Positions 27,045 to 45,369 of a DNA stretch of 64,000 bases are shown in pieces. Under the pieces are notes generated by a model, which was given only the letters and a program-made list of their open reading frames with translations, made no database searches and had not been told where the DNA came from. Every line of letters begins with the position of its first letter. Positions within the stretch are counted from its first letter, which is position 1. The stretch spans positions 1 through 64,000 of the forward strand of contig JBFLXL010000010.1 in NCBI GenBank assembly GCA_040757205.1, in the 5' to 3' direction. This DNA comes from Bacillota bacterium. Its GTDB lineage: Bacteria > Bacillota > Desulfotomaculia > Desulfotomaculales > Desulforudaceae. A program made the translations under genes and the position numbers.

Positions 27045-27114
27045 TGTCCTTTCTCCTCCTTGAAGATGCAGATGTGTAGTTAGTTGATACTCCATTAGTT
27101 GTCTTTTATGGAGC

Positions 27115-27179: not shown

Positions 27180-27263
27180 AAGTGAGTGTATGAAAAGTGG
27201 ATTGGAACCTGAAAGTCACAGATCGTTTCGCCGATCTCGGCCAACTACGGCTTTGCCGGGAAA

Positions 27264-27353
27264 GAGTCGGGGTACCCGGGGGCAGGCGGCAAGCACGCGC
27301 GGCAAGCACGCGTTGTTTACTTGCGCCGAACCGAGCAGAGTCGGGGTACCCGG
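27264..27353. repeat. GGGGTACCCGG repeat pair in the acsD-mvhD gap
   Basis: GAGTCGGGGTACCCGG occurs at 27264-27279 and 27338-27353, 74 nt apart. Between them GGCAAGCACGCG is repeated in tandem (27288 and 27301). The GGGTACCC core is shared with the GC-rich elements in pyrF, pyrK and carB. The rest of 27045-27376 shows only the promoter element. Confidence 0.65.
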
Positions 27354-27376
27354 TACCGAGGGGGCGGGCGGCATTG

Positions 27377-28273: not shown

Positions 28274-28304
28274 CAAAGCCTTCCGCTCCTTTCCACGAGA
28301 AAGC

Positions 28305-29177: not shown

Positions 29178-29179
29178 CC

Positions 29180-30559
29180 TTATGTTCCTCCTTCTGCTTC
29201 CTTCCATTTGGCGAACAGTTTGGGCATAAACGCGGGTAGTTCTTCGGCCTCTTTGGGCCCCACAATGATCTCCCAGCCGGGCAGTTCGTCTTCGATCTCA
29301 CCTTTGATCCGGGCGGCCAAGCCGGGGATAATGAGCCTCTTTTTCTTCAGTTTTCCTTCCAAACCACTGTTTTTGATAAATGGGCCGATGGTCTCCCCGG
29401 CGAATTTGCCCGTTGACCACGCGGCCAGGACGCACAACCCGTCGGTTCCCTTCACACCCAGATAACCGGGGATTTTGCTTGCTTCCACGCCGCTCGCCAC
29501 CGCGAAATAGGTCAGGGCGAAGTTGGTGGTGAGCACAACAGGCGATACTTCGTTTGGCGCACCAATTTCGTAGACTTTCTCTTCCACCGCCAGCGGCACA
29601 CGCGGGTCGGTGTAAATATTGAGCCGGTGAACCAGCAGGGGAAAAAGCGTTTCTTTGTCCAGGTCGCTGAGCACAATTACCGAAGCATACTTGATCACCA
29701 GGGCCGCGGCCAAGAGCGCTTCTTGGGCCGCGTCTTCGGCCTTCAGCGGTAGGAAGGAAATGATCGGGTACCCCAGCGGCCGGAAGGTGTGCCTTAAAGC
29801 AGCCCGCCTGATCAGGGTGTAATCCCGGAGGGACTCCTTCAGATTCTGCGGGGAGGTGTCGATCATGATCTCCGAAACACCGGCGGCTCTTAGCTTCGTG
29901 GTTACGGCCACAACCTCTTCCAAGTTTTGACCCCTCACCGCTACGGGAACGACCTTTTTCTTTAAGCCGGGGAGAGCCTCCTCCAAATTGGCGCTGGTAA
30001 GCGGGTACAAAAGCGGCTTTTGCTCGGCAACCAGGTCGCGGGCGGCAAAAAGCACCTCCAGGTCCTCGCACATCAACACCATGGGCCGCTTTTCCCGGGC
30101 CACCCCGGCAACCACGGACAGGTACCTTTCTTTACTGCCGCTTTCAAATTTAAGGACCACAAGGTCGGCCCGCAGGTTGAAGGTTACCCAAGTGAATTCG
30201 TATTCATCAAGCCTTTTCAACTTGGCGTTTATGGCCTGATCGGTCTCGATGTCGGAAATCAACACGGCCAGGCCGGGTGGGCGCAAAAAGGTCTTCTCGT
30301 GGCGATGGACGACCTCTTCTTCCCCCACCGTCAGCATCCTTTCACCGGTGCCCACGCTGACCAGCCTGATGGGTGGGGTGATGGCGTCAATGATCCACTC
30401 CTTCACTTCCGGATCAAGATAGGGACACTTTTCCAGCGACACCCCGCCGGAGATCAATTTCATGGCAAAGGCCAGACAGGTGGGAAATCCGCATTCCTTG
30501 CAGTTCTTCTTCCCCCCGTCGGGGAGCTTTTTCTGGATGTCGGACGGTTTTAGAGGCAT
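29180..30559 (-). CDS. acsC: Corrinoid iron-sulfur protein, large subunit
   Basis: 459 aa. The N-terminal [4Fe-4S] motif is C-KEC-GFPTC with the fourth Cys in EKCPYLDPEV, which sets the cobalt redox state. The TIM barrel and C-terminal B12-binding domain follow (GYLGVKGTDGLCVLAAWSTG, FAGETIGPFIKN). It pairs with AcsD. A perfect 10-bp palindrome lies in the 62-nt gap to the upstream ACS gene. No Shine-Dalgarno anomaly (GAGGGGGAG before ATG). Confidence 0.95.
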   Translation of the reverse strand: MPLKPSDIQKKLPDGGKKNCKECGFPTCLAFAMKLISGGVSLEKCPYLDPEVKEWIIDAITPPIRLVSVGTGERMLTVGEEEVVHRHEKTFLRPPGLAVLISDIETDQAINAKLKRLDEYEFTWVTFNLRADLVVLKFESGSKERYLSVVAGVAREKRPMVLMCEDLEVLFAARDLVAEQKPLLYPLTSANLEEALPGLKKKVVPVAVRGQNLEEVVAVTTKLRAAGVSEIMIDTSPQNLKESLRDYTLIRRAALRHTFRPLGYPIISFLPLKAEDAAQEALLAAALVIKYASVIVLSDLDKETLFPLLVHRLNIYTDPRVPLAVEEKVYEIGAPNEVSPVVLTTNFALTYFAVASGVEASKIPGYLGVKGTDGLCVLAAWSTGKFAGETIGPFIKNSGLEGKLKKKRLIIPGLAARIKGEIEDELPGWEIIVGPKEAEELPAFMPKLFAKWKEAEGGT

Positions 30560-30594
30560 GTACTCCCCCTCCTTCGAAAATTGACTCTTACCTC

Positions 30595-30615
30595 AAAAGG
30601 GGCCAGGCCCCTTTT
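30595..30615. terminator. Perfect 10-bp hairpin between cdhC and acsC
   Basis: AAAAGGGGCC and GGCCCCTTTT pair around a single A. On the minus strand it ends in a short T-run and follows the ACS stop by 7 nt. It could terminate part of the transcripts, or stabilise their 3' ends, and so set the ACS to corrinoid-protein ratio. Confidence 0.5.
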
Positions 30616-30621
30616 TGCCCG

Positions 30622-31821
30622 CTAACCACCCATAACGGGATGCTCCACTTTTTGGAGAAACTCGATCAGGTCGTCGACGTTTTTGACCTCCTTTTCAGAA
30701 GCGATTTTATCGAAAAGGTCGGGGGGGATGGCCTCTTTTACCATTTCTTTAATCGTGCCGGGCATCCAGACCACCCTTCGCAATCCGCCGTCGGTGATCA
30801 GGAACTTGGGGGATTTCAGATAGGAAATGGCCATTCCCACGTACCCTTCCCGCTGTTGGCCGCCGCTGGCCTGAGCGGCCAGGGTGGAGAAGGGAGCACC
30901 GATGACCGCTTCTCCGACAAAGTCGCGGTGGATGATGCCGAAGCCGTCCACCTCCGGAATATAGAAGCAGATCGACTGGAAGCAGCCGCAGGCGGTGTGG
31001 GGGTTTTCCAGGGCGCTGTGCAGGCAGCAAACAGAAATCCGGCCCAAGGATCTTTGCGTCACGACCTCGTTGACCCCGCTGTAAATGTGTTTTTCGGGAT
31101 CCAAGAGTTCGCCTTTCGGTACGGCAAAAATGGCTCCCTCCGGGTCGATCTTGGAGGAGGCTCTCCCGTCCAACCAGCTGATGGCGCCGCACAGGGACAT
31201 CCGCTCCGGCGTGATGATGCACACGTGGGTGGGCGCGAAGCTCTGGCAGAGAACACAGCCGTAGAATTCCTCCACCTCTTCCTCGGTCATGCCCTTCAGG
31301 CGTGCGTCCCGGGCGTCGTAAACCGGCCGCGCTTTTAAAACATGCTCTTTTACCTTTTCAGGGTCGGTGATAAAGGTGACCTGCATTTTTTCGATGATGG
31401 GCAGCTCGTTGGTAAAAAGCATGATCATTATTTGACCGATCTCTTGTAAAGACTGCAGTCCTTTTTTGTGGCTTTCCTTGTGCAGCCGCAGCCAAACATG
31501 GTCCCTTTGCGCCATGTGCCAGAAACCCTCGATGTAATTGCAGTACTGGTGGATACGGCGTTCGAAAACGGGCTCCATATCTCTTTCCAGTTGTTCTCCG
31601 ACCACTTCCACGCTGATGAAGAGAGGGGAGGTGGTGCCCTCCGCCATGTCTTTAATGTCCGGGCCGATGACGGCCACTCTTTCGTGCTCGACTTCATTTG
31701 TGGATCTTAAGGTGACCAATTCTCCTTTGTATTCGCACCGGGGTCCGCCGAATTCAACGTAGAAGTCGTGTTTTCTTACGCTTTCGCCTTCGTACTGGGG
31801 TCCCACGTCTACCGGGAACAT
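30622..31821 (-). CDS. cdhC: Acetyl-CoA synthase core, archaeal CdhC type
   Basis: 399 aa. Bacterial AcsB is about 730 aa, so the roughly 310-residue N-terminal CODH-docking domain is missing, as in archaeal CdhC. A-cluster ligands are present: FYGCVLCQSFAPTHVC, then the Cys in ERMSLCG. The Cys-Gly-Cys in TACGCFQSICFYIPE holds the distal nickel. It condenses CO, a methyl group and CoA. AAGGAGGAGGAG precedes ATG. It is followed by bacterial-style acsC, acsE and acsD. Confidence 0.93.
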   Translation of the reverse strand: MFPVDVGPQYEGESVRKHDFYVEFGGPRCEYKGELVTLRSTNEVEHERVAVIGPDIKDMAEGTTSPLFISVEVVGEQLERDMEPVFERRIHQYCNYIEGFWHMAQRDHVWLRLHKESHKKGLQSLQEIGQIMIMLFTNELPIIEKMQVTFITDPEKVKEHVLKARPVYDARDARLKGMTEEEVEEFYGCVLCQSFAPTHVCIITPERMSLCGAISWLDGRASSKIDPEGAIFAVPKGELLDPEKHIYSGVNEVVTQRSLGRISVCCLHSALENPHTACGCFQSICFYIPEVDGFGIIHRDFVGEAVIGAPFSTLAAQASGGQQREGYVGMAISYLKSPKFLITDGGLRRVVWMPGTIKEMVKEAIPPDLFDKIASEKEVKNVDDLIEFLQKVEHPVMGG

Positions 31822-31843
31822 TTTTCTCCTCCTCCTTCAAGGA

Positions 31844-31945
31844 AAACGGTTTCTTTGGTTATCAATCCGACCTGATGCATCAAAGTGTTCCAAGGCCATG
31901 GTCGCCACGCGGGGGTGGACGGGGGTGGACATGGCCGCCGGCGCT
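31844..31945 (-). pseudogene. Relic of the DUF166 domain tail
   Basis: Between the FdhA-like stop and cdhC, the minus strand encodes VHPRVATMALEHF in one frame and LMHQVGLITKETV in the next. The intact DUF166-NuoE gene at 37.5 kb has HPCVATMAHDQEIGDTLMHQ, then AGLMTKTAV. The DNA is also alike (CCATGGTCGCCACGC shared). The relic has a small deletion and frameshift, and a GTCCACCCCC duplication. Confidence 0.75.
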
Positions 31946-31947
31946 TT

Positions 31948-34938
31948 TTACGGCGTGTATGGCAGCGGCCAAAATTGCGCCCGGCCCAGGCCGAAAAATT
32001 CGCTTTCGTGCAGCACGTCCGTCCCCGGGTGTTCTTTATCGGGGCAAGGCCAGCGCAAGCCCCCCACCTCCGGGTCGAGCCGGTCGTAGCTGATCCCCGC
32101 ATGGGTGGGGTAGAGGGACGATATTTCCGCCATGATCTGGGAGGGATGGTTGCAGGTAAATCCCCCGGCTTTCATGCGGCGGGCGATTTCGCAGATAATC
32201 CACCAGTCCGGCTTAGCGGCCCCGGGCGGTTCGGCTGCTTGGCGGACGCGCTGGACAAGGCGGTCCACCGCCGTAAAGGTCCCCTCCTTTTCCGCAAAAC
32301 CGGCCGTGGGAAGCACGACCTGCGCCAGCTTTGCCGTTTCGGTCAAAAACATGTCCTGGACCACCACGAAGGGGGCTTTTGAAAGGACCTGGCGCACGTT
32401 ATCCGCCTCCGCCGCTCCTGGATTCACCGGGTCGGCGCCGATAATGTACCAGGCCTTCCTTTCGTTTTCCACCGACCCAGCGGGTTCGGGGACGGTGCAC
32501 CCCCACGCGGCGGCCACTTTTTCCTTGCTCACCAAAGACCAAGGGTGGGTAACGTCCAGGTCAAGGAGGCCCCGGAAGTTGCTCCGGCCGACCAGAGGCA
32601 CGAAACCCGCACCCGGCTTGCCGTAGTTGCCGGTCACCAAGGCCAACTGGGCCAGCGCCCGGATGCTGTCCCGACCGCCTAAGCGTTCCGCGATTTCTTC
32701 GGACCAGAAGAGGAGGCCCGGCTTGCTGGTGGCGTACACCCGGGCCGCTTCCCGAAGCTGTGCGCCGGGAACGCCGGTGATTTCCACTGCTTTCTCGATG
32801 GTGAAATCGGCGAGGGATTTTTGAAAAGCGTCAAAATTAGTGGTCCTATCCCGGATAAACTCTTCGTCGTGGAGCTTTTCGTCCAAAATAGCCCTGACCA
32901 TTCCCAGCAGCAAAAAAAGCTCCGTACCCGGGCGAAACGCAAGGCGAATGTGGGGCAACCGGCCGAGGGGTATTTCCCGGGAGTCGGCAATGATCAGTTT
33001 CGTCCCCCTTTTAACCGATTTGCCGATTTCGTAACCGATGAGCGGGTGGGACTCAGTAGGGCTGGCGCCAATCACCAAATGAGCGGCCGCCCTTTCAATT
33101 TGCCCGACGGGAACGGTCATGGCCGTGTTGCCCACGGTTTGGCCCAGGCCGTCCAACAATCCGGCCCGGCTGGTGAGCGACTCAATGTCGGCGATGTTGC
33201 TCGTTCCCAGCACCGCCCAGGCGAACTTCAAGGCCAGGTAGATTTCTTCGTTGGTGACCCGGGGGCCGTACCAAACAACCGCCTCTTTCCCTTTGTACCG
33301 GGAAAATTCGCCGGCCACCAGGTCCAGCGCTTCTTCCCAGCCGGCTTCCACGAACCGGCCGTCTTTTTTGATTAAGGGGGTTTTCAGGCGGTCGGGGTGA
33401 TTGAGTAGCGCCCAGCCGAACCGGCCCCTCCCGCAGAGGCGCCCTCGGCTCGTTTGGTGGTTGAGGTTGCGGCGCACACTGACCGGCCTGCCGCCCCGGG
33501 TGCCGAAATATAAGCCGCAGCCAATCCCGCACGCCGCACACACCGTTTCCACTTCCCGGGCGGGCTGCACCAGCCCCTTGGGCAAAAGGGCCCCCACCGG
33601 GCAGCGAGCCACGCATTCGCCGCAGGACTCGCAGGTTGACTCGGCCAGACTTGTTCCCTGCCGGGGGACCACCACCCTCCGGTTGTCCACACGTTTAAAT
33701 TCCAGCGCGTCCGCGCCGTTGATCTGCCGGCAAGTGCGGAGGCAGATGCCGCAGGCGACGCAGCGGGAGCGGTCGAGAACAAAGTACGGATGGCTCTCGT
33801 CCACTTCCGCAAAGGGGGTTGGGGTACCCACCATTTCCTGGCGGACCCCGGTGTAGCCGACCACTTCTTGTAGTCTGCACCGGCCGTTTTTCGCGCAGTT
33901 CAGGCAGTCCCCGTTGTGACCGGCCAGGATTCCTTTCACCGCCGCCGCCTGCGCTTCCCGGGCCTGCGGCGAGCTGGTCCGCACGACCATCCCTTCCCCA
34001 GCCCGGGCCGTGCACGAAGGCACCACCTTGCCGTCGATTTCCACTGCGCAGACCCGGCATCCGCCGGAGCCCGTGAGTTCGGGGTGGAAACACAGGAAAG
34101 GAATGTAGAGGCCCACCTTTTGCGCCGCCTCTAAAACGGTGACTCCTCTCCCCACGCTCACTTCCAGGCCGTCAATGGTAAGGCTGACGGCCTCTGCCAC
34201 CGGTCCCCTTTCTTTCGGAAAAGGGGGTGTTTCCGGGCGGCGCTCAACTCTTGCGACAACCCGGGGTGGAATGAGGACGCCCTCCCGGACCGGCTCGGCC
34301 GGCACTTTGGGCAAAAGGGCGCCCACGGGACAGCGGGCCACGCACTCGCCGCAGGAGACGCAGTTTGACTCGTGCAAAGGCTTGTTTCCGAAGGTGCCGA
34401 TGGTGGTAGCGCGGCCCCGGAAAGCAAAGTCGATGGCGTTCACCTGGACGATCTCGCGGCACGTCCGTACGCAGATCCCGCATAAAAGGCACTTGTTGTA
34501 GTTTCTGACGATCCACGGGTGCGTGTCGTCCAGGGGCTTTTTAAGCTCGACGCGCCTTAACTCCTTGAATTCGGTGGCTTCAAGGCCTAAGTAGCGGGCT
34601 ACCTCCTGAAGCTTGCAGTTTAGGTTTTTCCCGCAGGTAAGGCAGTCCGACTCGTGTTCGGCCAGGATGACCCCTACTATGTGCCGGCGGTACTGGTCCA
34701 GGTTCGGGCTTTTGGTGGCGACCCGCATCCCATCGGCAACCGGCGTGCGGCAGGCGGCCACCATTTTCCCGTCGGCCTCGACCATGCACACCCGGCACAA
34801 GCCGGCCGGTTTTAGATCGGGGTGGTGGCAGAGATACGGAATATAGATGCCGTTTCTTAAAGCGGCCTCCAGTATGGTCACCCCTTTTCCGGGGACCCTG
34901 ACGGGCAAGCCGTTAATGGTGAGTTTAACGGCCTCCAT
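31948..34938 (-). CDS. FdhA/NuoG-like Fe-S subunit without catalytic residue
   Basis: 996 aa. Two NuoG-type Fe-S modules occur in tandem, at about 1-220 (YLCHHPDLKPAGLCRVCMVE) and about 260-490 (FLCFHPELTGSGGCRVCAVE). A molybdopterin oxidoreductase-like part follows. Where FDH has CARL-Sec/Cys-H, this protein reads SLTSRAGLLDGLG, with no Sec, Cys or His. The NNVQGACDMG cofactor motif is also degraded. The chain stops at WPLPYTP, lacking the C-terminal dinucleotide-binding domain. It is therefore probably an electron-wiring scaffold for the NuoE/NuoF-like partners and not an enzyme. It starts 1 nt after the NuoF-like stop. Confidence 0.8.
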   Translation of the reverse strand: MEAVKLTINGLPVRVPGKGVTILEAALRNGIYIPYLCHHPDLKPAGLCRVCMVEADGKMVAACRTPVADGMRVATKSPNLDQYRRHIVGVILAEHESDCLTCGKNLNCKLQEVARYLGLEATEFKELRRVELKKPLDDTHPWIVRNYNKCLLCGICVRTCREIVQVNAIDFAFRGRATTIGTFGNKPLHESNCVSCGECVARCPVGALLPKVPAEPVREGVLIPPRVVARVERRPETPPFPKERGPVAEAVSLTIDGLEVSVGRGVTVLEAAQKVGLYIPFLCFHPELTGSGGCRVCAVEIDGKVVPSCTARAGEGMVVRTSSPQAREAQAAAVKGILAGHNGDCLNCAKNGRCRLQEVVGYTGVRQEMVGTPTPFAEVDESHPYFVLDRSRCVACGICLRTCRQINGADALEFKRVDNRRVVVPRQGTSLAESTCESCGECVARCPVGALLPKGLVQPAREVETVCAACGIGCGLYFGTRGGRPVSVRRNLNHQTSRGRLCGRGRFGWALLNHPDRLKTPLIKKDGRFVEAGWEEALDLVAGEFSRYKGKEAVVWYGPRVTNEEIYLALKFAWAVLGTSNIADIESLTSRAGLLDGLGQTVGNTAMTVPVGQIERAAAHLVIGASPTESHPLIGYEIGKSVKRGTKLIIADSREIPLGRLPHIRLAFRPGTELFLLLGMVRAILDEKLHDEEFIRDRTTNFDAFQKSLADFTIEKAVEITGVPGAQLREAARVYATSKPGLLFWSEEIAERLGGRDSIRALAQLALVTGNYGKPGAGFVPLVGRSNFRGLLDLDVTHPWSLVSKEKVAAAWGCTVPEPAGSVENERKAWYIIGADPVNPGAAEADNVRQVLSKAPFVVVQDMFLTETAKLAQVVLPTAGFAEKEGTFTAVDRLVQRVRQAAEPPGAAKPDWWIICEIARRMKAGGFTCNHPSQIMAEISSLYPTHAGISYDRLDPEVGGLRWPCPDKEHPGTDVLHESEFFGLGRAQFWPLPYTP

Positions 34939-34939
34939 T

Positions 34940-36892
34940 TTAATCCCTCCCCCTTGCCGGCCGGCCCCTCTCCAGGAGGTTTAACTTTTCCGGTCCGGTG
35001 ACCTTTGTTACGGCGCGGTATTTATCCGGGCACATGTCAAAACACCCGCCGCACTTGAGGCACTTTTCCTGGATAATCACCGGCGCCGCCCGCCATTTGC
35101 CGGCGATTGCTTCCACCGGGCAGTTTTCCAGGCAGAGCCGGCAGGGTTCGGCGCATTTATCAGGATCAATCCAGTAGGCAATTAATTCTTTACACTGCAG
35201 AGCAGGGCAACTTTTTTCAGCGAGGTGTGCTTCGTATTCCGAATGGAAGTAGCGCAGCGTGCTCAGCACCGGGTTGGGAGCGGTTTGGCCCAGGCCGCAG
35301 ATGGAACCGGTCATAATTGCTTTGGCGATGCCTTCCAGCAAAGACAGGTCAGTTGGTTTGCCGCGTCCCCGGGTGATATCTTCCAGAATTTTTAGCATCT
35401 GATAAGTGCCTGCCCGGCAGGGCGCACACTGGCCGCAGGATTCGTTGACGGTGAACTCCAGAAAATACCTGGCCACATCCACCATGCAGGTATCCTGGTC
35501 CAAGACCACCATGCCGCCGGAACCCATCATGGATCCCGCGCTCTTCAGGGAGTCGAAGTCCACCGGCATATCCAGCAGTTCTTTGGGCAGGCAGCCGCCG
35601 GAAGGACCGCCCGTTTGCACGGCCTTGAACTCCCGGCCGGTGGACGTCCCGCCGCCGATGTTGAAAATGATCTCCCGCAGTGTTATTCCCATGGGAACTT
35701 CGATCAGGCCGGTGTTTTTGGCCTTTCCGGTTAGGGCGAAAACGGCTGTTCCCTTGCTGGTTTCGGTCCCCATGGAAGCAAACCACTCCGGACCCCTGGT
35801 GATAATCTGGGGCACATAGGCGAATGATTTGACGTTATTCAACAGGGTGGGTCTGCCGCCGATGCCTTCTTCGGTTGTGCGGGGCCGGGGCATCACTTTG
35901 GGCATTCCCCGGAAGCCTTCGATGGAGCGGACCAGGGCCGTCGATTCGCCGCAGACAAAGGCGCCGGCACCCCGGAAGATCTCGAGGTCAAAGTTGAATC
36001 CGGTGCCCATGAGGTCCGGTCCCAGCACCCGGTGTTGCTTGGCCTGCGCAATGGCAATAATTAAGCGTTCCACCGCCAGCGGGTATTCTGCCCGGACATA
36101 GATATACCCGTGGCTGGCACCGACGGCGTAGGCGGCAATGGCCATCCCTTCCAGAACGGAGTGGGGATCTCCTTCCAGGACGGAGCGATCCATAAAGGCC
36201 CCCGGGTCGCCTTCATCGCCGTTGCAGACTATGTACTTCGGTTCCCCGCCGGCCCGGCGGGCGCTCGCCCACTTTCTTCCGGTGGGGAAACCGGCCCCGC
36301 CCCGGCCGCGCAGGCCCGAACGGGTGACGGCGTCAATTACTTCTTCCGGGGTGTACCGGGTGAGCACGTCGGCCAGCGCCTGGTATCCGCCGACGGCAAA
36401 GTACTCGCGGATGTCTTCCGGGTTAATCAGGCCGCAGTAGGCGAGGACCACCCTTTTTTGGTGGCGGTAAAAAGGCACGTCCTCTTCCCGCAGGCTTTTG
36501 CTTCCGTCCGGGTTCTGGTAAAGCAGGCGCTCCACCACCGTATTCTTATCCAGCGCGGCGCTGATGATTTCCGAGACGTCGGCCGCCGTTACCTTCGTGT
36601 AAAAAACACCCTCCGGTTCAAACCGCACCAGGGGGCCTAACTGGCAAAAACCGTGGCAGCCGCTGTAGGCGGTGCCGACCTCGGTTTCCCGGCCTTCAAA
36701 AAGCAGCTCCACGTCGGACGGCGAGCCTCTTTCTCTAAGCAAGCGCCCAAACTCCCGGTAAACTTCCAGGGCGCCGCCAAGAACGCAACCGGTGCCGGCA
36801 CACACCAAAAACCGGTATTTTTGTCGCGCAAAAGCGCTTTCACATACTTTTCGGACCTCCGCCAGCTGAGCTGGGGAGTGGACCTGTAGCAT
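34940..36892 (-). CDS. NuoF/HymB-like NAD(P)H-oxidising flavoprotein
   Basis: 650 aa. The N-terminal thioredoxin-like [2Fe-2S] domain has CAGTGCVLGG and SGCHGFCQLG. The NuoF core binds FMN (GRGGAGFPTGRKW) and NAD(P)H (VCNGDEGDPGAFMDR), and holds a [4Fe-4S] cluster (CGQCAPCRAGTYQM). The C-terminus adds two ferredoxin clusters (CRLCLENCPVEAI, CLKCGGCFDMCP). This layout matches HydB/HymB of electron-bifurcating hydrogenases and formate dehydrogenases. CAAGGAGG precedes ATG at 36892. Its partners are the DUF166-NuoE fusion and the FdhA-like scaffold. Confidence 0.9.
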   Translation of the reverse strand: MLQVHSPAQLAEVRKVCESAFARQKYRFLVCAGTGCVLGGALEVYREFGRLLRERGSPSDVELLFEGRETEVGTAYSGCHGFCQLGPLVRFEPEGVFYTKVTAADVSEIISAALDKNTVVERLLYQNPDGSKSLREEDVPFYRHQKRVVLAYCGLINPEDIREYFAVGGYQALADVLTRYTPEEVIDAVTRSGLRGRGGAGFPTGRKWASARRAGGEPKYIVCNGDEGDPGAFMDRSVLEGDPHSVLEGMAIAAYAVGASHGYIYVRAEYPLAVERLIIAIAQAKQHRVLGPDLMGTGFNFDLEIFRGAGAFVCGESTALVRSIEGFRGMPKVMPRPRTTEEGIGGRPTLLNNVKSFAYVPQIITRGPEWFASMGTETSKGTAVFALTGKAKNTGLIEVPMGITLREIIFNIGGGTSTGREFKAVQTGGPSGGCLPKELLDMPVDFDSLKSAGSMMGSGGMVVLDQDTCMVDVARYFLEFTVNESCGQCAPCRAGTYQMLKILEDITRGRGKPTDLSLLEGIAKAIMTGSICGLGQTAPNPVLSTLRYFHSEYEAHLAEKSCPALQCKELIAYWIDPDKCAEPCRLCLENCPVEAIAGKWRAAPVIIQEKCLKCGGCFDMCPDKYRAVTKVTGPEKLNLLERGRPARGRD

Positions 36893-37050
36893 TATCCTCT
36901 GCCTCCTTGAAGTCACCGGACAACACTGAAAATGCACCACAGAGACACGGAGAACACAAAAGATGCGATTGAGCAGGGAGGATACCAGGATTTCTCTATA
37001 GTCCCCTCTGCCCCCGTGTTGAATTGGAATGGAGCCGGTCCCTCTCTCTT

Positions 37051-38178
37051 TTACCCCACTGTGCTTCTTGCTTTCCCAGGCGTCATTTCCCCGTATACTT
37101 CCTTACCCACAACAACCACGGGCGCCAGGGCGCACGCGCCGACACAAGCCACTCGTTCCAGGCTGTACTCGTAATCCGGAGTGGTTTCCCCGTGGCCGAC
37201 GCCCAGTTGCCGTTCAAACTCTTCCAGCACCCGGGTGGCCCCCTTTACGTGGCAGGCGGTACCGCAGCACACCTTGATCTGGTTCCTGCCCCGCCGGAGG
37301 AAATAAAACTGGTCGTAAAAGGTCGCCACCCCGTAAACGTGGCTTTCGGGCAACTGGACAAAACGGGCGATCTCCCGCATGGCCGCCTCGGGCAGGTAGC
37401 CGAACACCTCCTGGGTATCTTGGAGAATCGGGACCAGCTCGCAGCCATGCCCTCTGTAACGGAGGAGGGCGTTTTTCAGCCCCGCGTCGAGATCTTCCTT
37501 TAGGGCTTCTTCCACCGCCGTTTTGGTCATCAACCCCGCTTGGTGCATCAGGGTATCCCCAATCTCCTGATCATGGGCCATGGTCGCCACGCAAGGGTGG
37601 GCATGGTGAAGAAGTCCGGCCTGCTCACAAGCGTCCTTGACGTGCGCCCCCACCAGGTTTTCGGCCACGTATCTGGTGTTGCCGCAGGGAGCATCCCGCA
37701 GGACCTTCACCGCGGCGACCTTGTCTTTATCCAGGATGATCTCCACTTTCGGCCGGCCGAAGTGGCGGGCGAAGGCCTGGATTTGGGGACTGGTGCTGTC
37801 CTCCTCGGTAAGAGCGCAGAAAACCAGCGGATGCACCATGGCAATTTCTTTTTGCGCCAATTTCTTCTTGATCTGCCTGGCCAGTCCGGAAGGAAGGTAG
37901 GCCTTGTTGTCGATGGGGGCGATCACCGCCCCGGCCCCCGTCATTTCGGCCAAATGGGGAGCCATCTCGGCCACCACCGGATCTTCCTGAAGCATCAGCA
38001 GGAGATCGCATCCCGGCAGGTTGGGAGGTAGAAAGTCCTCCGGCGCATCGTCGATCCCGATGGCGAGCTTTTCCGGGAAGACGTGGTGGTTTATCTCCCA
38101 ACCGCGCGGGGCGTATCGGGTCATGGCCTCGACGTACCGGCGGCCGTAATCGCCCTGAATGATCAGTAAGATTCGCAT
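37051..38178 (-). CDS. DUF166-NuoE fusion protein
   Basis: 375 aa. Residues 1-225 or so are DUF166 (RILLIIQGDYGRRYVEAMTR, ...), a family I know mainly from methanogens. It has Cys in PCGNTRYVAENL and the HPCVATMA tail. Residues 230-375 are a NuoE/HymA thioredoxin fold with the [2Fe-2S] motif CCGTACHVKGA and CVGACALAPV. The second part feeds the NuoF-like flavoprotein encoded downstream. The role of DUF166 in a CODH operon is unknown. GCGGAGAAAT precedes ATG at 38178, inside the end of cooC. Confidence 0.85.
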   Translation of the reverse strand: MRILLIIQGDYGRRYVEAMTRYAPRGWEINHHVFPEKLAIGIDDAPEDFLPPNLPGCDLLLMLQEDPVVAEMAPHLAEMTGAGAVIAPIDNKAYLPSGLARQIKKKLAQKEIAMVHPLVFCALTEEDSTSPQIQAFARHFGRPKVEIILDKDKVAAVKVLRDAPCGNTRYVAENLVGAHVKDACEQAGLLHHAHPCVATMAHDQEIGDTLMHQAGLMTKTAVEEALKEDLDAGLKNALLRYRGHGCELVPILQDTQEVFGYLPEAAMREIARFVQLPESHVYGVATFYDQFYFLRRGRNQIKVCCGTACHVKGATRVLEEFERQLGVGHGETTPDYEYSLERVACVGACALAPVVVVGKEVYGEMTPGKARSTVG

Positions 38179-38942
38179 ATTTCTCCGCACCCGCCTTCTA
38201 AAATTTTCTTCTTGAGCGCCTCCACCTCGGACTGCAACTTCTCCCCGGCTTTGATGTCCTTTTCTCGCATGGCGTTTTCCCAAATGCTTTCGTCGTAGCC
38301 GACAAAGCCCAACAACTCCCCGTTTTGGAAGCTCTCGTCAATGAATTTGCGTTCCCTTTCGGAGCGGATCTTATTGCCGATGCTTCTTATTTTTTTTATC
38401 CCTAGATCCTCGGCCATTTTCCGGATGTGACGGGCGGTGTTGATGCTGTTTAGGCTCGGTTCCACCACCACCAGCATTAAGTCCACGCCTCCGGCGGTGC
38501 CGCGGGTAAGATGCTCGATGCCCGCTCCCATGTCCATAATGACCACTTCGCCCTGATCTAAAAGCAGGGAGGAAACCAGCGCGCGCAAGAAGGTATTTTC
38601 CCGGCAGTAACATTCAGAGTTGCCCTTTTTTACCTCCCCCATGCGCAGAAACCGGATGTTTCCAAGGCGAATGGCATGGTTTTCGACCACGTCGTCCACC
38701 CGGGGGTTTAAGCGATAAACGTGTCCGCCGCCACTCCTCGCCCTGATCAATTCCTTCATTTCCGCCACGGGCTTAAGCCGGGCGGCAACCTCTCCGGGAA
38801 CGCCGATGGCTGCAGCCAGGCAGGCGTCCGGGTCCCCGTCTATCGCCCAGACCAGCCGGTGGGTGCGGGCAAAGGATTTTATCAACGCGGCGGCGATGGT
38901 CGTTTTTCCTACCCCGCCCTTCCCGGAAACCGCCAGTTTCAT
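38163..38942 (-). CDS. cooC: CooC nickel-insertion ATPase
   Basis: 259 aa. It begins MKLAVSGKGGVGKTTIAAAL, the deviant Walker A of the MinD/CooC class. The nickel-binding Cys-x-Cys of CooC is present in NSECYCREN near residue 120. It loads Ni into the CODH C-cluster. AGAGGTG lies 5 nt before ATG. It follows cdhB by 45 nt and overlaps the start of the DUF166-NuoE gene by 16 nt. Confidence 0.95.
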   Translation of the reverse strand: MKLAVSGKGGVGKTTIAAALIKSFARTHRLVWAIDGDPDACLAAAIGVPGEVAARLKPVAEMKELIRARSGGGHVYRLNPRVDDVVENHAIRLGNIRFLRMGEVKKGNSECYCRENTFLRALVSSLLLDQGEVVIMDMGAGIEHLTRGTAGGVDLMLVVVEPSLNSINTARHIRKMAEDLGIKKIRSIGNKIRSERERKFIDESFQNGELLGFVGYDESIWENAMREKDIKAGEKLQSEVEALKKKILEGGCGEICESY

Positions 38943-38987
38943 TTGCGCACCTCTTGACTGCTTGTCGGCCGGGAATCCCCGGCTCAT

Positions 38988-39542
38988 TTAATAAAGGCCT
39001 CTTATGATCCCCTCAAGGTACTCCCGCCACTTTTCCATTCTCGGGATTACCGGCGCGGTGTAATCCGCATTGGGGTGGCCGCGCCGGCAAACAGCGAAGG
39101 TTTTCAGATGGGGCGCAAAGTGCTTTAAGGTGGCCAGGCCGCGTTCGGCCAGATCACATCTGACGCCGGTGAAAAGAACCAAGTCGTGCGAACCGCGTCC
39201 CCTAACCCCCTGCCAGTCCGGCATTTTCAGAAAGTGGATGATTTCGATGATGTCGTAAACACAGTCCGGTCTTTTCCCGAACTCCAGCATCTTTTTCTTC
39301 ACGTGTGCCGTGGCGCAGGTGAGAATGTTGTTTGCCCTGACGATTTCTAACACGTATTCGAGCAAAAGCTTTTCCCCGACTTCGGAGGTGATGGTCTCCG
39401 GCCCCAGAATGTATAACGGGTTCCTGGCCCGGTCGATAATCTCGGCCGCCTCAACCGGGTCCGAAACAACCCGGGCGGCCTTTGTTCCGGTTAACGTGTT
39501 CACCGTGTAGTACGGAACAAATAGAAATTCTCCCTCAGGCAT
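38988..39542 (-). CDS. cdhB: CODH/ACS epsilon subunit CdhB
   Basis: 184 aa. It matches the archaeal ACDS epsilon subunit: AAEIIDRARNPLYILGPE, then LEYVLEIVRANNILTCATAH and DLVLFTGVRCDLAERGLATL. In Archaea it binds CdhA in an alpha2-epsilon2 complex and may handle FAD access. Bacterial CODH/ACS complexes normally lack it, so with CdhA it shows archaeal descent of this module. GGGGAGGG precedes ATG. It follows cdhA by 74 nt. Confidence 0.85.
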   Translation of the reverse strand: MPEGEFLFVPYYTVNTLTGTKAARVVSDPVEAAEIIDRARNPLYILGPETITSEVGEKLLLEYVLEIVRANNILTCATAHVKKKMLEFGKRPDCVYDIIEIIHFLKMPDWQGVRGRGSHDLVLFTGVRCDLAERGLATLKHFAPHLKTFAVCRRGHPNADYTAPVIPRMEKWREYLEGIIRGLY

Positions 39543-39616
39543 TCTTGGCGCCCTCCCCTCACAGGTGATGCTCTTTACAAAATAATTTTTTTGTGCTGGA
39601 AAATAGTAGGAGCTGC

Positions 39617-41914
39617 CTACCTTAGCGTGGCCGAAACGGGCACCTTCGTTTCGTAAGTGCCGATGATGGTCGGCAGGGACAAAGCCGGCTTCGGCTGCCA
39701 GCCGACTGCTTTTAAGTAAGCCAGCACCTCTTTTTTGTAAACCAGGGGCACATCCCGTTCGGTGCGGACGAAGTTTTGCAGGTCGTCAGGAAGCGTACCC
39801 AAATGTTCTTTATAAACGGAGATATACTGATGCAGTTTGATCGCCCGGCCGGGAGAAGTGTCGTTTCGCCGCATGCAAAGCTTGATCATAGTGGGCAGAG
39901 CCCTTTCCCTGGTTTCCACGACGATGGCCATGTGCTCCGGGGTGGGCTCCCGGGTATCGACCAACTGCTCGGTCCGGCCGTCGATAACCGTCCAGTCGTC
40001 GTATTCCTTCTTGCTCATAAAGAGCCTTCTGTATTTGGCCCCGTGGGGACCAAGCAAAAGGGGAATCCCCCACCGTATGGCGCCCGTGCCGATGGCCAGG
40101 GCCTTCTGGGAATAGGGACCCCAAACCACGGCACAGGCACCCACCCGGTTGAGGATGTAGTCGGCAATCAATTCAAAATTGGCCCGGCCGGGCAAAGCGG
40201 CGAAGATGTTGGCGATCTTGATGGCGGCACCGACCACGTGCGCGTTGGAGACGCAGGAACCCACGTTGAGGACGCCGCCGGCGTCGAATGAAGGCGGGTA
40301 CTTTTCGTAAATGGTCTTTCCATCGGCGTCTTTGTACATTCCCGCCGCCATTGCCGCGCATCCGGAAAGGCAGACGATGTACTTGCGGCGCGCCAGCTCC
40401 TCCGCCATCCAGGCCACGTCGCCAACGTCCGGATAATTGGAACACCCGGCAAACAGCACCACCCCCGGGATGGTACCCAAAACGATGGGGGAACCCACTT
40501 TTCTTATTTCCACGTCGTGGATCGGCCCCCGACCGACCCGCACTTTGTATTTCTCCGCTCCAGCCGCCGCCGCCATTAACTTTAGGATGGGAAGATTAAA
40601 ATCGCAGGCGGCTTCACATTTCCCGCAACCGGTGCACTTCCTGAACAGATCGGCAAGCGGTTCCAGATTCCCTTCGCCGGCCTGGCTGACCGCCGTGCCG
40701 ACCGGTAGCAGGTTGGCGCAGTTTTGATTGCACTTCTCGCACTTTTTTCGGCACCTGCCGGCGATCTCGACGGCCTGCTCGGGGGTAAGAATGGTTTTTT
40801 TGCGCGTCGGCGCCAAGGCCAGTGCCGCCTCTACCGCCGCTTGCGCCGCCTTGTCGGGGTCTAAAACCAGGACCTGTTTCTTTTCCCCGGCAATCATTTT
40901 TACAATCTCGCCGGTCTCTTTTTCGGTGACGTTGTCCAGACCGTAGCAGATTTTGTCCGACCAGGCGATGAGCGCCGCGCCTGTTTCTTTGGCGAGGGCC
41001 GGAATATCGGTCAGCACGCATTGCTCATCGGCCACAATCACGTCGGCGATGCCGGTTTTTAGAAAAAAGCGCTGCTGCGCCAGCGGGCCGACCACCTTCG
41101 CGCCCTCGTTGTACCGGGTGGTGTCCAGCGCCGTACAACAGATTCCGGCCAGTTCCACCTTGTCCAAAAGGTTTTTTCGCCGCAGGTAATCGGTCATACT
41201 GTTGGCGGCCGCGGCGTTGTGGCCCACCAGAAGGATCACCGGCTTCGTGCGGTCAATGGTGCCCCACCCCAGCTCGACCAGCGGTGTTTCAACCACCGAC
41301 GTCGGGTAGTTAAACCCGGTGATTTGGGCGATGTCGCAGGCCTCCAAGGCGACGTGGTCCAGCATTCCGCAGTGGAAGGCCTTAGACTCGTAGTCCAGAT
41401 TGCTTCCTTCCTGTCCGGTATGGGTGGCGGCAACCAGATGGATAAGTTCCCTTTCCACATATTCAACGGCCCGGCGCAGGTCGCCGAGGGTTTTCGGCTT
41501 TAAACCGAGCACGGTCCTGATGATCGGCGCTTCCACATTGACTTGGTCCCCCAAATCAAGCGGATGATTTTCGCCGTGCTTTTCAATAAGGTGCTCGATC
41601 AGGTGGCGCCCGTGCGCCCCATGGGCGGCGGCGCCCATCAAGCAGGAGATCAAGATCATCCTGGCCTGCTGGGTGGCCATGTCGATGCCGCAGGCACCTT
41701 TGCGGTCCAGCGTCAAGTCGCACTTGCCGAAATTGCATAAACAGCAGAGATCGCAAAACGGTGCATAAAAGGGCCGGTAAGTTTTCATCAAGCGAAAGTC
41801 CCAGTTGCGCAAGTCAGTCACCAGGGGCAGCGGTGTATGGCCTACGGCTTCCCAGGGTTCTTCGGCCCTGATGATTCCGTTGATTTTTTCTCTAAATTTT
41901 TCTGTTTTGCTCAT
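39617..41914 (-). CDS. cdhA: CO dehydrogenase alpha subunit, archaeal CdhA type
   Basis: 765 aa, as in archaeal CdhA (bacterial CooS is about 640). The extra N-terminal part has FCDLCCLCNFGKCDLT for the B/D clusters. A ferredoxin-like insertion carries CEKCNQNC and CTGCGKCEAAC. C-cluster ligands are seen in FHCGMLDHVAL, GICCTALDT, FAGCSNYPDV and CLSGCAAM. It reduces CO2 to CO for acetyl-CoA synthesis. GCAGGAG precedes ATG. It is the first gene of the operon that ends with acsD. Confidence 0.95.
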   Translation of the reverse strand: MSKTEKFREKINGIIRAEEPWEAVGHTPLPLVTDLRNWDFRLMKTYRPFYAPFCDLCCLCNFGKCDLTLDRKGACGIDMATQQARMILISCLMGAAAHGAHGRHLIEHLIEKHGENHPLDLGDQVNVEAPIIRTVLGLKPKTLGDLRRAVEYVERELIHLVAATHTGQEGSNLDYESKAFHCGMLDHVALEACDIAQITGFNYPTSVVETPLVELGWGTIDRTKPVILLVGHNAAAANSMTDYLRRKNLLDKVELAGICCTALDTTRYNEGAKVVGPLAQQRFFLKTGIADVIVADEQCVLTDIPALAKETGAALIAWSDKICYGLDNVTEKETGEIVKMIAGEKKQVLVLDPDKAAQAAVEAALALAPTRKKTILTPEQAVEIAGRCRKKCEKCNQNCANLLPVGTAVSQAGEGNLEPLADLFRKCTGCGKCEAACDFNLPILKLMAAAAGAEKYKVRVGRGPIHDVEIRKVGSPIVLGTIPGVVLFAGCSNYPDVGDVAWMAEELARRKYIVCLSGCAAMAAGMYKDADGKTIYEKYPPSFDAGGVLNVGSCVSNAHVVGAAIKIANIFAALPGRANFELIADYILNRVGACAVVWGPYSQKALAIGTGAIRWGIPLLLGPHGAKYRRLFMSKKEYDDWTVIDGRTEQLVDTREPTPEHMAIVVETRERALPTMIKLCMRRNDTSPGRAIKLHQYISVYKEHLGTLPDDLQNFVRTERDVPLVYKKEVLAYLKAVGWQPKPALSLPTIIGTYETKVPVSATLR

Positions 41915-42106
41915 TGCTTACTCCTGCCCTGAAAATAGTTGTTCCGGTCAAGCACAAAACTGTCTCCAACGGCATGGAGCAAGGAAAATTGCCCTTCTTG
42001 CCGTTACTTTCGACCGATAATTGTTTGTGTTTATTTCTTTCGCCGCCCTGTTTGTATTCAGAAGGTACCGGTTCGCCAACCACCTCTTTCACCGGGGGAT
42101 GTCACC

Positions 42107-42170
42107 CAGTATAAAGGAGAACCGGTTTCCATACACCGGTTGGACTGTGAATTGCCTATTAAGCCGGGTG
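42107..42170 (-). promoter_or_regulatory. Promoter-upstream element of the CODH/ACS operon
   Basis: TATACT on the minus strand (42108-42113) is preceded by a 60-nt block that aligns with 27115-27179. The shared parts are CAGTATA, GGAGA, TTGG-CTGTGAA and TAAGC. The -35 box is poor, which fits an activated promoter. The rest of 41915-42389 holds only the relic at 42223-42369. Confidence 0.6.
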
Positions 42171-42222
42171 TACGGCAGTTAAACCGGATTAGGTACTGCC
42201 TCCGTGCGTGATCAGGAACAAT

Positions 42223-42369
42223 TCAGGAGGTTTTTTCGACCGCTTGGCCCATCAAATGGTGGCACAAGGTTGGTACATCCACGCCTTAGCCGCGATACGC
42301 TTCCAGGAATGTCGCCCCAGCAGGTATGGCCATTTTTTTCCCGTCCACCGAAAGACAAATCGTCTGCAT
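42223..42369 (-). pseudogene. Relic of a NuoG/FdhA [2Fe-2S] domain
   Basis: ATG at 42369 opens MQTICLSVDGKKMAIPAGAT, then FLEAYRG and a TAA. The same frame resumes with GVDVPTLCHHLMGQ and stops 20 codons later. The two intact proteins of this type read KLFVDGREITVEEGRTVLEA with IYIPHLCHHPDL, and similar. The match in order, spacing and the CHH motif marks a dead fragment of a third NuoG-like gene. Confidence 0.7.
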
Positions 42370-42389
42370 TCCTTGTTTCCGAAATTAGG

Positions 42390-43280
42390 TCATATGCCGG
42401 TGCCAGTGGCATCTCCACTCCCCTCCGGCAAACCGGCGAGACGCCAGGCCGCTTCGACGGTGTTGGCGAGGAGCATGGCCACCGTCATGGGTCCGACACC
42501 CCCGGGCACCGGGGTGATGAATCCGGCCTTGGGCTGCACCGAGGCAAAGTCCACGTCGCCCACCAAACGGCCGTCCAGCCGATTGATCCCCACATCGACC
42601 ACCACCGCCCCCTCCTTGACCATGTTCCCCGTGATCATCTGGGGCCGGCCCACGGCCACCACGAGAATGTCGCCGCCCAAGGTCACGGCGGCCAGGTCCG
42701 GCGTCCGCGAATGGCACACCGTCACCGTGGCGTGGCGCTCCAGGAGCAACAGCGCCACCGGTTTGCCGACGATGTTGCTGCGGCCGACGACCACGGCGTG
42801 CTTTCCGGCAATGGAAACGCCCGACCGCTCCAGGAGCGTGATGATCCCCCGCGGTGTGCATGGAATCATGCCGGCCTCGCCGGTGACCAGGCGGCCGACA
42901 TTCAGGGGGTGAAACCCGTCGGCGTCCTTCTCGGGCCGGATGGCTTCCATAAGCATGCGGGCGTCGAGGTGCGGCGGCAGGGGAAGCTGTACCAGAATGC
43001 CGTGAATGTCGATTCTCTCGTTCAGCTGCTCAAGCAGGCGGCGCACCGCCGCCTCCGGCACCGAGGCTTCCAGACGGTATACCTCGGAGTCGATACCCAC
43101 CTCCCGGCAGGCGGCTTCCTTGTTCCGCACGTACGTCTGCGACGCCGGGTTGTCCCCGACCAGGACCACCGCCAGGCCGGGAGGGTGTCCGTACCTTTCC
43201 CTGAAGGCCTCCGCCTCACGGGCGGCCTCGGCCTTCACCCGGCCCGCAACCGCCTTGCCGTCAAGGATCCGTGGTTCCAT
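42390..43280 (-). CDS. folD: Methylene-THF dehydrogenase / methenyl-THF cyclohydrolase
   Basis: 296 aa, bifunctional FolD. Motifs are [20 protein letters not shown] (the catalytic Lys is in YVRNK), [24 protein letters not shown] and the NADP loop [13 protein letters not shown]. It converts formyl-THF through methenyl-THF to methylene-THF, bridging Fhs and MetF. AAGGAGGTG precedes ATG. It stands alone, with a hairpin or operator upstream. Confidence 0.97.
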
Positions 43281-43327
43281 CCCGACAGCACCTCCTTAAA
43301 ATAAAAAAGTGGCTGGAGCAATGTGAT

Positions 43328-43350
43328 TTGCGGGTGAGAATCATCCGCAA
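43328..43350. promoter_or_regulatory. Inverted repeat upstream of folD
   Basis: TTGCGGGTGA and TCATCCGCAA form 10-bp arms (one mismatch) around GAA. It lies between a TTGACA box (43367-43372, minus strand) and the folD Shine-Dalgarno sequence, a good place for a repressor or an RNA hairpin. Confidence 0.4.
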
Positions 43351-43403
43351 CAGAATTAAAGGTCTATGTCAATAATTTTTGCGGGGGAGGAGGGGGAGGG
43401 GCA

Positions 43404-43435
43404 ATAAAAACGCCGCCAGTTGTAGACTGGCAGCG
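43404..43435 (-). terminator. Intrinsic terminator of the pyr operon
   Basis: On the minus strand CGCTGCCAG and CTGGCGGCG pair (one G-U) around TCTACAA, followed by TTTTTATTG. It lies 70 nt past the last small gene and closes the whole pyrimidine operon. Confidence 0.88.
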
Positions 43436-43505
43436 ACGGGTTGCCGGTTAACCGTCTCCGGAAGTCGGAAAAGCCCTGTTAATTATTCAGCAGCACACAG
43501 CGGCG

Positions 43506-43634
43506 CTAATCCGATCTGCACTTGCGGGCTGCTTTGGCCCGGAACCGTTCTTGGACCGCATCTCCGGTCAGTTCCCGCAGGGCGTCGGCGGCGACCCAAC
43601 GGGCGTTCTTGCTCTTCCTAACCGGCCAGAACAT
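43506..43634 (-). CDS. 42-aa basic protein at the end of the pyr operon
   Basis: ATG is preceded by TATAAGGAGACATTT, a strong ribosome site, 10 nt after the pyrF stop. The product starts MFWPVRKSKNARWVAADALR and ends FRAKAARKCRSD. It is basic, probably helical and soluble. No family is recognised. The position between pyrF and a good terminator, and the excellent Shine-Dalgarno, argue that it is translated. Confidence 0.6.
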   Translation of the reverse strand: MFWPVRKSKNARWVAADALRELTGDAVQERFRAKAARKCRSD

Positions 43635-43644
43635 AAATGTCTCC

Positions 43645-44439
43645 TTATACCGCCGCCAGTTCCCGGGCGATGGCTTGCACGGCGGCCACGGGGTCGGGGG
43701 CCGCGGTGATGGGGCGGCCGATCACCAGGTAGTCGGCGCCGGCCTGCACGGCTTGCGCCGGGGTCAGCACCCGTTTCTGGTCTTGCAATTCGGCGCCTGC
43801 CGGGCGGATGCCCGGCGTGATCAGCAGGAAGTCCGGCCCCAGGGCGGTGCGGAGCGTGGTCAGTTCCAGCGGCGAGGACACCACGCCGTCCAGGCCGGCG
43901 GCCTTGGCCAGCCCGGCCCAGGCCAGAACCACTTGTTCCAGGTTCTTCCCGAAGCCCAGTTCCCGGCTTAAGTTCTCTTGCTCCAGGCTGGTCAGCACGG
44001 TGACGGCCACGAGCTTCGGAACCGGGACCCCGGCCTGCGCCGCCTCCGCATGCGCCGCCTCGGCCGCCGCCCGCATCATGGCGAGGCCCCCGGCGGCGTG
44101 CACGTTGATGATGTGCGCACCCAGGCCCGCCAGCGCCCGCACCCCCTGGGCCACCGTTTCTGGAATGTCGTGCAGTTTTAAGTCCAGAAAGAGCCGGGCG
44201 TCGGCGGCGGCCAGCTCCTCCACGATCCGCGGGCCGTGGCGGAAAAAGAGCCGCATGCCGATCTTAAAGCCGCCCACCTCGTCCCGGAGTTCCCGGGCCA
44301 GAGTGAGCGCCCGCTCGCGCTCGTCCACGTCCAGCGCCACCAGAATCCGCCGGCCCGCCAACCCGCCGACCCGCCGACCCGCTGACGCAGGTGCCCCCGG
44401 GTGCCCCCGGGTATCCCCGGGTACCCTCGACTCCGACAT
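43645..44439 (-). CDS. pyrF: Orotidine-5'-phosphate decarboxylase
   Basis: 264 aa against the usual 235-240. Catalytic motif LFLDLKLHDIPETV (Lys-x-x-Asp) near residue 90 and phosphate loop LITPGIRP, then DYLVIGRPI. It makes UMP. The first 29 residues or so (after MSES) are Gly/Pro/Arg-rich and come from a GC-rich repeat at 44352-44429. The normal family start would be GRRILVALDV. GGGAGGT lies 9 nt before the ATG, upstream of the repeat, so the extension is probably translated. It starts 6 nt after pyrD. Confidence 0.95.
   Translation of the reverse strand: MSESRVPGDTRGHPGAPASAGRRVGGLAGRRILVALDVDERERALTLARELRDEVGGFKIGMRLFFRHGPRIVEELAAADARLFLDLKLHDIPETVAQGVRALAGLGAHIINVHAAGGLAMMRAAAEAAHAEAAQAGVPVPKLVAVTVLTSLEQENLSRELGFGKNLEQVVLAWAGLAKAAGLDGVVSSPLELTTLRTALGPDFLLITPGIRPAGAELQDQKRVLTPAQAVQAGADYLVIGRPITAAPDPVAAVQAIARELAAV
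44352..44429. repeat. GGGTRCCC-type GC-rich repeat in pyrF
   Basis: On the plus strand CCCGCCGA units lead into GCTGACGCAGGTGCCCCC. Then GGGTGCCCCC, GGGTATCCCC and GGGTACCCT follow at a 10-nt period. It encodes the non-conserved N-terminus of PyrF in frame. Confidence 0.75.
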
Positions 44440-44445
44440 CGCGAT

Positions 44446-45369
44446 TTAACCTCCCGTCCGGTGGGCGGCGCCCACCAGTTCGTTTATGTCCCCGATCCCC
44501 TGCTCGGCCAGGTACTGTTCCAGGCCCGCCGCCACCGCTGCGGCCGCGCCCGGGTTGACCAGGTTCGCCGTGCCGACGGCCACGGCCCGCGCTCCGGCCA
44601 GGATGAACTCCAGGGCGTCGCGCGCGGTCATGATGCCGCCCATGCCGATCAGCGGCAGCGCCACCGCCCGGTAGACCTGCCACACGGCGCGCACCGCCAC
44701 CGGGCGGACAGCCGGCCCGGAAAGGCCGCCGAACACGTTGCCCAGGAGCGGCCGGCGCCGCTCCACGTCGATGACCATCGCGGAGAGCGTGTTGATGAGC
44801 GACAGAGCGTCGGCCCCCGCCCCGGCGGCGGCCAGGGCGATGGTCCTGATGTCGGTCACGTTGGGCGAGAGCTTGGCGATCACCGGCAGGGCGGTGTTCT
44901 CCCGGACCCGCCGGACCACCTCGGCCGTCATTGCGGGCTCGGTGCCGAACGCGATCCCTCCGGCCTTCACGTTCGGGCAGGAGATGTTCACTTCCAGGGC
45001 GGCGATCCCGGGCACCCCGTCCAGCCGCCCGGCCAGGCGGGCGTACTCGCCGGCCGTTTCGCCGGCGATGCTGACGATGACCGGGACCCCAAAGCGCGCC
45101 AGGCGCGGCAGGATGTCCGCCACCAGGGCTTCCACGCCGGGGTTTTGCAAGCCCACGGCATTGATCACCCCGGCCGGGGTCTCGGTAATCCGGGGTGGCG
45201 GGTTGCCGGCCCGGGGTTTTAACGTGATCGTTTTAACCACCAGCGCGCCGAGCCCGGAGAGGTCCAGGTAGGGCGCGTACTCCTCGCCGAAGCCCACCGT
45301 TCCCGAGGCGGTGAGCACCGGGTTTTTGAGCTTGAGCCCGGCGATGTCGACCGCCGTTTTCGTTTTCAT
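44446..45369 (-). CDS. pyrD: Dihydroorotate dehydrogenase B, catalytic subunit
   Basis: 307 aa, class 1B. FMN-site and catalytic motifs are [32 protein letters not shown] (active-site Cys) and [17 protein letters not shown]. It oxidises dihydroorotate and passes electrons to PyrK. The ATG overlaps the pyrK stop (ATGA). A longer reading to 45606 is only an overlap with pyrK. Unlike pyrK, pyrF and carB, it holds no repeat insertion. Confidence 0.96.

Follow-up and report, generated by a model that had tools for sequence, protein, structure and literature searches.

The stretch of DNA analysed here, which we refer to as the window, comprises the first 64,000 nucleotides of contig JBFLXL010000010.1 from a bacterium of the phylum Bacillota. 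Between 43280 and 27377 it carries a CODH/ACS gene cluster, with all genes on the minus strand. In the direction of transcription these encode a FolD-like methylene-THF dehydrogenase/cyclohydrolase (42390–43280, by sequence resemblance), the archaeal-type Ni-CODH catalytic subunit CdhA (39617–41914; TIGR00314, 1013 bits against a cut-off of 781), the archaeal-type CODH/ACS epsilon subunit CdhB (38988–39542; TIGR00315, 107.8 bits against 101.2), a CooC/AcsF-like nickel-insertion NTPase (38163–38987), a protein in which DUF166 is fused to a NuoE-like domain (37051–38178), a NuoF-like flavin subunit (34940–36892), a NuoG-like subunit (31948–34938), the short archaeal form of the acetyl-CoA synthase beta subunit CdhC (30622–31821; TIGR00316, 584 bits against 356), the corrinoid Fe-S protein large subunit CdhE/AcsC (29180–30559; PF03599 and PF04060, NF003195 540 bits), an AcsE-like methyltransferase (28305–29207), and the corrinoid Fe-S protein small subunit CdhD/AcsD (27377–28276). 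The names of the last two rest on similarity in sequence and on the known order of such genes, and both occupy the same place in related clusters; the FolD-like gene is kept upstream of cdhA in G001 and G002, the other two genomes of the genus that were sampled.

CdhA, CdhB and CdhC all score above their equivalog cut-offs, which confirms at the level of sequence that this is an archaeal-type CODH/ACS cluster. The gaps from CdhA to CdhD are −28 to +126 bp, and this tight spacing, together with the subunit scores, bears out an earlier note on this DNA that placed the fusion within a CODH operon. The genome also encodes a bacterial-type ACS on another contig (a 739-aa frame on C1) and has a single DUF166 gene, which ties DUF166 to the archaeal-type cluster. 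Wood-Ljungdahl methyl-branch genes, identified by eye as Fhs, MetF-like, MetV-like and MvhD-like, lie downstream of the cdh cluster at 22215–27000 (minus strand), and much of the Wood-Ljungdahl pathway is thus within the window. An Rfam search of positions 26000–46000 returned no match, and a promoter scan gave results at chance level.

The fusion is encoded by a single stop-free ORF of 375 aa. Pfam places DUF166 (PF02593) at residues 6–227 (E 3e-49, 168 bits against a cut-off of 24.4, covering profile positions 3–220 of 221) and 2Fe-2S_thioredx (PF01257) at residues 236–372 (E 7e-45, 152.8 bits against 24.8). The DUF166 domain (227 aa; 37498–38178) is further defined by its conserved residues and an AF2 model, and the C-terminal half (37051–37497) is a NuoE-like [2Fe-2S] thioredoxin-fold domain, BfuC/HydC-like, with both Cys ligand motifs, C-x4-C and C-x3-C, in its sequence. 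This half scores below the NCBIfam equivalog cut-offs for NuoE (best NF005722, 138.9 against 141; TIGR01958, 114 against 142). The mechanically called ORF begins upstream at a TTG; we prefer the ATG at 38178 because it gives the start typical of the family, has GGAG upstream, and overlaps CooC by 16 bp.

An intact fusion is found at the same position in G001 and in G002, the latter a single-contig genome of 2.35 Mb. Across the three genomes of the genus dN/dS is 0.17–0.33 for both halves. Purifying selection is therefore acting on each, which excludes an assembly or frameshift artefact, and the fusion that the earlier note had read from the sequence is genuine. An AF2 model of the whole protein, for which few NuoE rows were supplied, has a pLDDT of 30–50 across most of the NuoE half, and draws one helix (residues 210–239) spanning the domain junction.

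The electron-bifurcating Bfu family, which is HydABC-like, has been defined (PMC9304861) with B2-cluster ligands C438, C476 (roughly two thirds have Thr), H525, C531 and C536; the His is kept in nearly all BfuB proteins and missing from non-bifurcating homologues. The NuoF-like protein of the window has C485, T523, H572, C578 and C583 (numbered in a 666-aa reading, with offsets from H572 of −87, −49, +6 and +11), which is exactly the published spacing, and the same spacing is found in G001, G002 and G103. PF01512, PF10589 and PF13187 are all over cut-off in this protein, which has a C-terminal ferredoxin domain, and SLBB falls just under its cut-off (24.3 bits against 27); the likely start, read directly from the sequence, is the ATG at 36892 with AAGGAGG in front. 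The Bfu family's domain set for BfuB and BfuC (PF01257 for the latter) is therefore present alongside its B2 ligands. Because those ligands occur at the published spacing, the NuoE, NuoF-like and NuoG-like proteins are predicted to be BfuC, BfuB and BfuA of a bifurcating module rather than subunits of complex I, and the label NuoE given previously to the second half of the fusion is better replaced by BfuC.

BfuA has two tandem complete 2Fe-2S/4Fe-4S ferredoxin modules and a molybdopterin domain that scores as FDH/NuoG, and it was considered as the formate dehydrogenase of the cluster. We reject this assignment. The domain scores below the FDH equivalog cut-off (TIGR01591, 450 against 666 bits) and lacks the catalytic Cys/Sec-His, with ADIESLTSRAGLLDG at the site (compared by eye) as against SCARICHIPSL in the separate FdhA of G002; in G103 the BfuA homologue is 473 aa long and the molybdopterin domain is wholly absent. 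By its sequence BfuA is therefore no working formate dehydrogenase, and given the missing residue and the G103 protein the module cannot be described simply as one. The real formate dehydrogenase of the window is a selenoprotein (19307–22005, minus strand): a single in-frame TGA falls at its catalytic site (HCARL-U-HAPTV), and its gene is cut at 20965 in the mechanical ORF list.

Alignment of 29 DUF166 sequences shows C121, C165, C196 and H212 to be invariant, as had been suspected from the single sequence, and D208 is present in 28; no further Cys is common to all 29. The AF2 model of the domain (pLDDT 92, pTM 0.89) is Rossmann-like in its N-terminal part and places the invariant residues near strand ends, in loops or at helix starts. 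An invariant Cys3-His set is typical of metal sites, and we infer that this one binds a metal or an Fe-S centre. The closest solved folds by VIA-align are CoA-binding Rossmann domains (Z 8.6–8.9), a likeness that may reflect a common arrangement only; Foldseek against the PDB gave no match below E 1e-3, with generic Rossmann folds among the hits, and a PDB sequence search found no relative. No relative was found in IMG/VR and none among PLSDB plasmids, and a scan of genome contigs with a single DUF166 sequence for close relatives recovered only one near-identical genome.

The earlier note had suggested looking for other DUF166 fusions. The 29 sequences fall into four arrangements. Arrangement A comprises the DUF166-BfuC fusion of the window genus and the cluster of G103, where DUF166 and NuoE are encoded by two distinct genes. 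In arrangement B, DUF166 forms the N-terminus of a complete CooS-type CODH of 898–913 aa; this fusion is present in five genomes (G145, G316, G501, G502 and G504), at L008:8581-11322(-), L036:7343-10069(-), L056:9327-12023(+), L057:2620-5319(-) and L059:7996-10722(-), at the end of acsE-cdhD-cdhA-cdhB-cdhC-cdhE or a near equivalent. The C-cluster and N-terminal cluster residues are retained in the two cases that were aligned and read by eye. An extra C-x2-C-x2-C-x2-C is found in clade B DUF166 only, for example in the N-terminal 60 residues of L008:8581-11322(-), and is possibly a second cluster. A clade B DUF166 in G503 (L058:8165-9469) ends with a stop at the linker, and no CODH portion follows it; this is either a degraded fusion or an assembly error. 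In arrangement C, seen in nine clusters of the acetogen type, a stand-alone DUF166 gene is flanked by fhs and fchA, and arrangement D consists of ten stand-alone copies encoded away from CODH genes.

In a tree of the family B, C and D each form one side of a supported branch and A is separate. The BfuC and CooS fusions are in different DUF166 clades and are independent. DUF166 of A and B is only about 27–30% identical, although the corresponding CdhA proteins are about 71% identical; given this divergence and the different supported groups, the cdh cluster has probably acquired DUF166 on more than one occasion, barring exceptionally rapid evolution of clade B. A classification of fused Ni-CODHs in the supplement of PMC6344411 may include the CooS fusion.

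The position of arrangement C suggests one alternative for the function of the domain, in which DUF166 acts on the one-carbon or CoA side of the pathway as an enzyme or a binding protein, for example by using a catalytic Cys in a step that handles CoA or C1 units. Its location between fhs and fchA in nine clusters fits this proposal, as do the best structural matches to CoA-binding Rossmann domains (9y43, PatZ and DddX; Z 8.7–8.9) and the weak matches of two of 21 members to CoA_binding_2 (best E 0.085); the selenoprotein form of the family (PMC9312934, PMC13188914; NF041372) fits a reactive Cys. We nevertheless think it improbable, since Z-scores at this level may mean no more than a shared fold, DUF166 is also present in methanogens, whose carrier is H4MPT and not THF (control genomes; PMC1852104), and the fusion partners are redox subunits, not C1-THF enzymes.

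The distribution of DUF166 was examined in a sample of 398 genomes of the phylum, 18 of which carry it (about 4.5%), and the statement that it is known mostly from methanogens is accordingly too narrow. ACS is present in 113 of the 398 genomes (a base rate of 28%) and in 17 of the 18 with DUF166; Fisher tests, in which phylogeny is handled only by the by-genus count, give p values of 3e-9 by genome and 1.5e-6 by genus. The one DUF166 genome in which ACS was not found is 84% complete and still has CODH-family matches. Conversely, 96 of the 113 ACS-positive genomes have no DUF166, and bacterial-type CODH/ACS therefore does not need it.

The association is closest with the archaeal-type subunits. 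Among the 113 genomes of the window's class, CdhB is over cut-off in exactly four, and the same four are the only DUF166 carriers there; the sampled congeners of G103 (G090, G095 and G097) gave no match in either the DUF166 or the CdhB search. CdhB is over cut-off in G000, G002, G145 and G316 of the phylum sample and in five genomes within the order of G316; summed, the CdhB-positive genomes number ten, representing few independent CdhAB lineages, and all ten have DUF166 inside the same cdh cluster. CdhA is over cut-off only in genomes with the DUF166/CdhB cluster among 80 tested, the CdhA of G103 being partial at a contig end. DUF166 is over cut-off in two of 14 control genomes; the control record gives just three names, B. 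subtilis, M. jannaschii and M. acetivorans, of which the latter two are the controls with ACS, and leaves the DUF166-positive pair unnamed. In a published comparison (PMC1852104), COG1810 (MMP0976) and CdhB (MMP0984) share a distribution across methanogens and A. fulgidus, and both are missing from Methanosphaera stadtmanae.

The association with NuoE is of another order: among the 29 sequences it is a fusion in the three genomes of the window genus only, with NuoE nearby in one more (G103). Of the distribution predicted for DUF166, the tie to CODH/ACS thus holds and the tie to NuoE is confined to one lineage. The ten CdhB genomes, the matching DUF166 and CdhB sets of the class and the CooS fusions make the CODH/ACS link much stronger than the sequence alone could have revealed, and the redox or one-carbon role proposed for the domain is therefore soundly based.

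Co-occurrence of this kind could also arise if DUF166 were a passenger travelling with transferred cdh clusters, its fusion to NuoE being incidental. Archaeal-type CODH in bacteria has been ascribed to horizontal transfer (discussed in PMC7325909), and the small number of independent CdhAB lineages in the sample leaves room for such an effect. We consider this very improbable: the co-occurrence holds outside cdh clusters too (17 of 18 with ACS), two independent fusions and strict Cys/His conservation speak for function, and clades A and B have diverged too far to have been brought in by a single cluster.

The reading that we tentatively favour makes DUF166 a partner domain dedicated to CODH/ACS, one that joins CODH to its electron partner. 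DUF166 would dock on CODH, and its partner in the window genus would be the predicted electron-bifurcating module BfuC-BfuB-BfuA, through which the CODH C-cluster could take up, or release, electrons of NAD(H) and ferredoxin; where DUF166 is fused to CooS, it would be welded onto the CODH side of the interface. The presence of DUF166 in all ten CdhB-positive clusters, its invariant Cys3-His set and the existence of two fusions in distant clades, to partners that are functionally adjacent but unrelated, argue for such a partner role. The ten copies away from CODH genes count against it and suit a factor acting in trans, and the placement between fhs and fchA in the nine acetogen-type clusters also counts against it, as do the many ACS-positive genomes that lack DUF166 and the small number of independent CdhAB lineages sampled.

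Those stand-alone copies keep alive the main rival proposal, that DUF166 helps to mature or repair the metal clusters of CODH/ACS. In this view the Cys3-His set would carry Ni or an Fe-S precursor and pass it on to CODH or ACS, working alongside CooC, and the fusions would hold DUF166 close to the enzyme it serves. The 16-bp overlap with CooC in the window, the location of DUF166 two genes after cooC in most acetogen-type clusters, the copies distant from CODH genes and the invariant Cys3-His are all as it would have them. Fusion to BfuC, a Ni-free electron carrier, is hard to account for in this way, however; in G103 CooC adjoins NuoE, not DUF166, and Pfam and PDB searches reveal no likeness to a known metallochaperone. 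We regard maturation as somewhat unlikely and prefer the role as a bridge, since in each of the two fusions DUF166 is joined to an electron-transfer or catalytic redox protein and BfuC holds no nickel to load. An extended form of the bridge proposal is more speculative, and we advance it as doubtful: DUF166 may be a metal- or Fe-S-cluster-binding subunit common to the archaeal-type CODH/ACS of archaea and bacteria (the archaeal evidence being the two control genomes and PMC1852104) that in the window genus couples CODH/ACS to Bfu, forming a bifurcating CO2-fixing complex of a new kind.

CODH/ACS is among the oldest of the carbon-fixing enzymes, and to our knowledge its list of known partners (CooC, CooT, CooJ and ferredoxins) does not include DUF166. 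Its presence in every archaeal-type cluster sampled, and its fusion to CODH itself, make DUF166 a concrete candidate for a missing CODH/ACS partner; such a role, if true, bears on how low-potential electrons get to CODH in deep-subsurface bacteria. DUF166, Bfu and hybrid CODH/ACS are each already known separately, and our literature search, which covered main texts, found no report on the function of DUF166, its tie to CODH, or either fusion.

The window protein belongs to the same Pfam family as the DUF166 proteins of methanogens and Archaeoglobus (PF02593/COG1810), scoring far above the cut-off, and differs from them in being bacterial, fused to NuoE, and encoded beside a Bfu module. It is homologous over its full length to DfsP, the DUF166 family (seleno)protein (NF041372), but its score of 66–68 bits falls well short of the 200-bit equivalog cut-off; the window protein has no Sec codon and is not a member of the DfsP subfamily. 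The hybrid CODH/ACS of Hakuba Actinobacteria and NPL-UPA2 (PMC7325909, of which a part was available to us) has the same mixture of subunits as the window, archaeal cdhABC with bacterial acsCDE, and its gene order acsED-cdhABC-acsC is as in our clade B; that part of the paper reports no link to DUF166 or Bfu. A close parallel to the module is Codh-Bfu (PMC9304861), in which CODH genes are likewise clustered with bfuA, bfuB and bfuC, and whose B2-cluster residues are present in the window BfuB. In the four described Codh-Bfu sequences the CODH genes lie between bfuB and bfuA, whereas in the window bfuB and bfuA are adjacent, separated by 1 bp, with CODH/ACS genes on both sides. The window cluster is further distinguished by its archaeal-type CdhAB together with ACS, by the two tandem ferredoxin modules of its BfuA, and by the presence of DUF166 on its BfuC.
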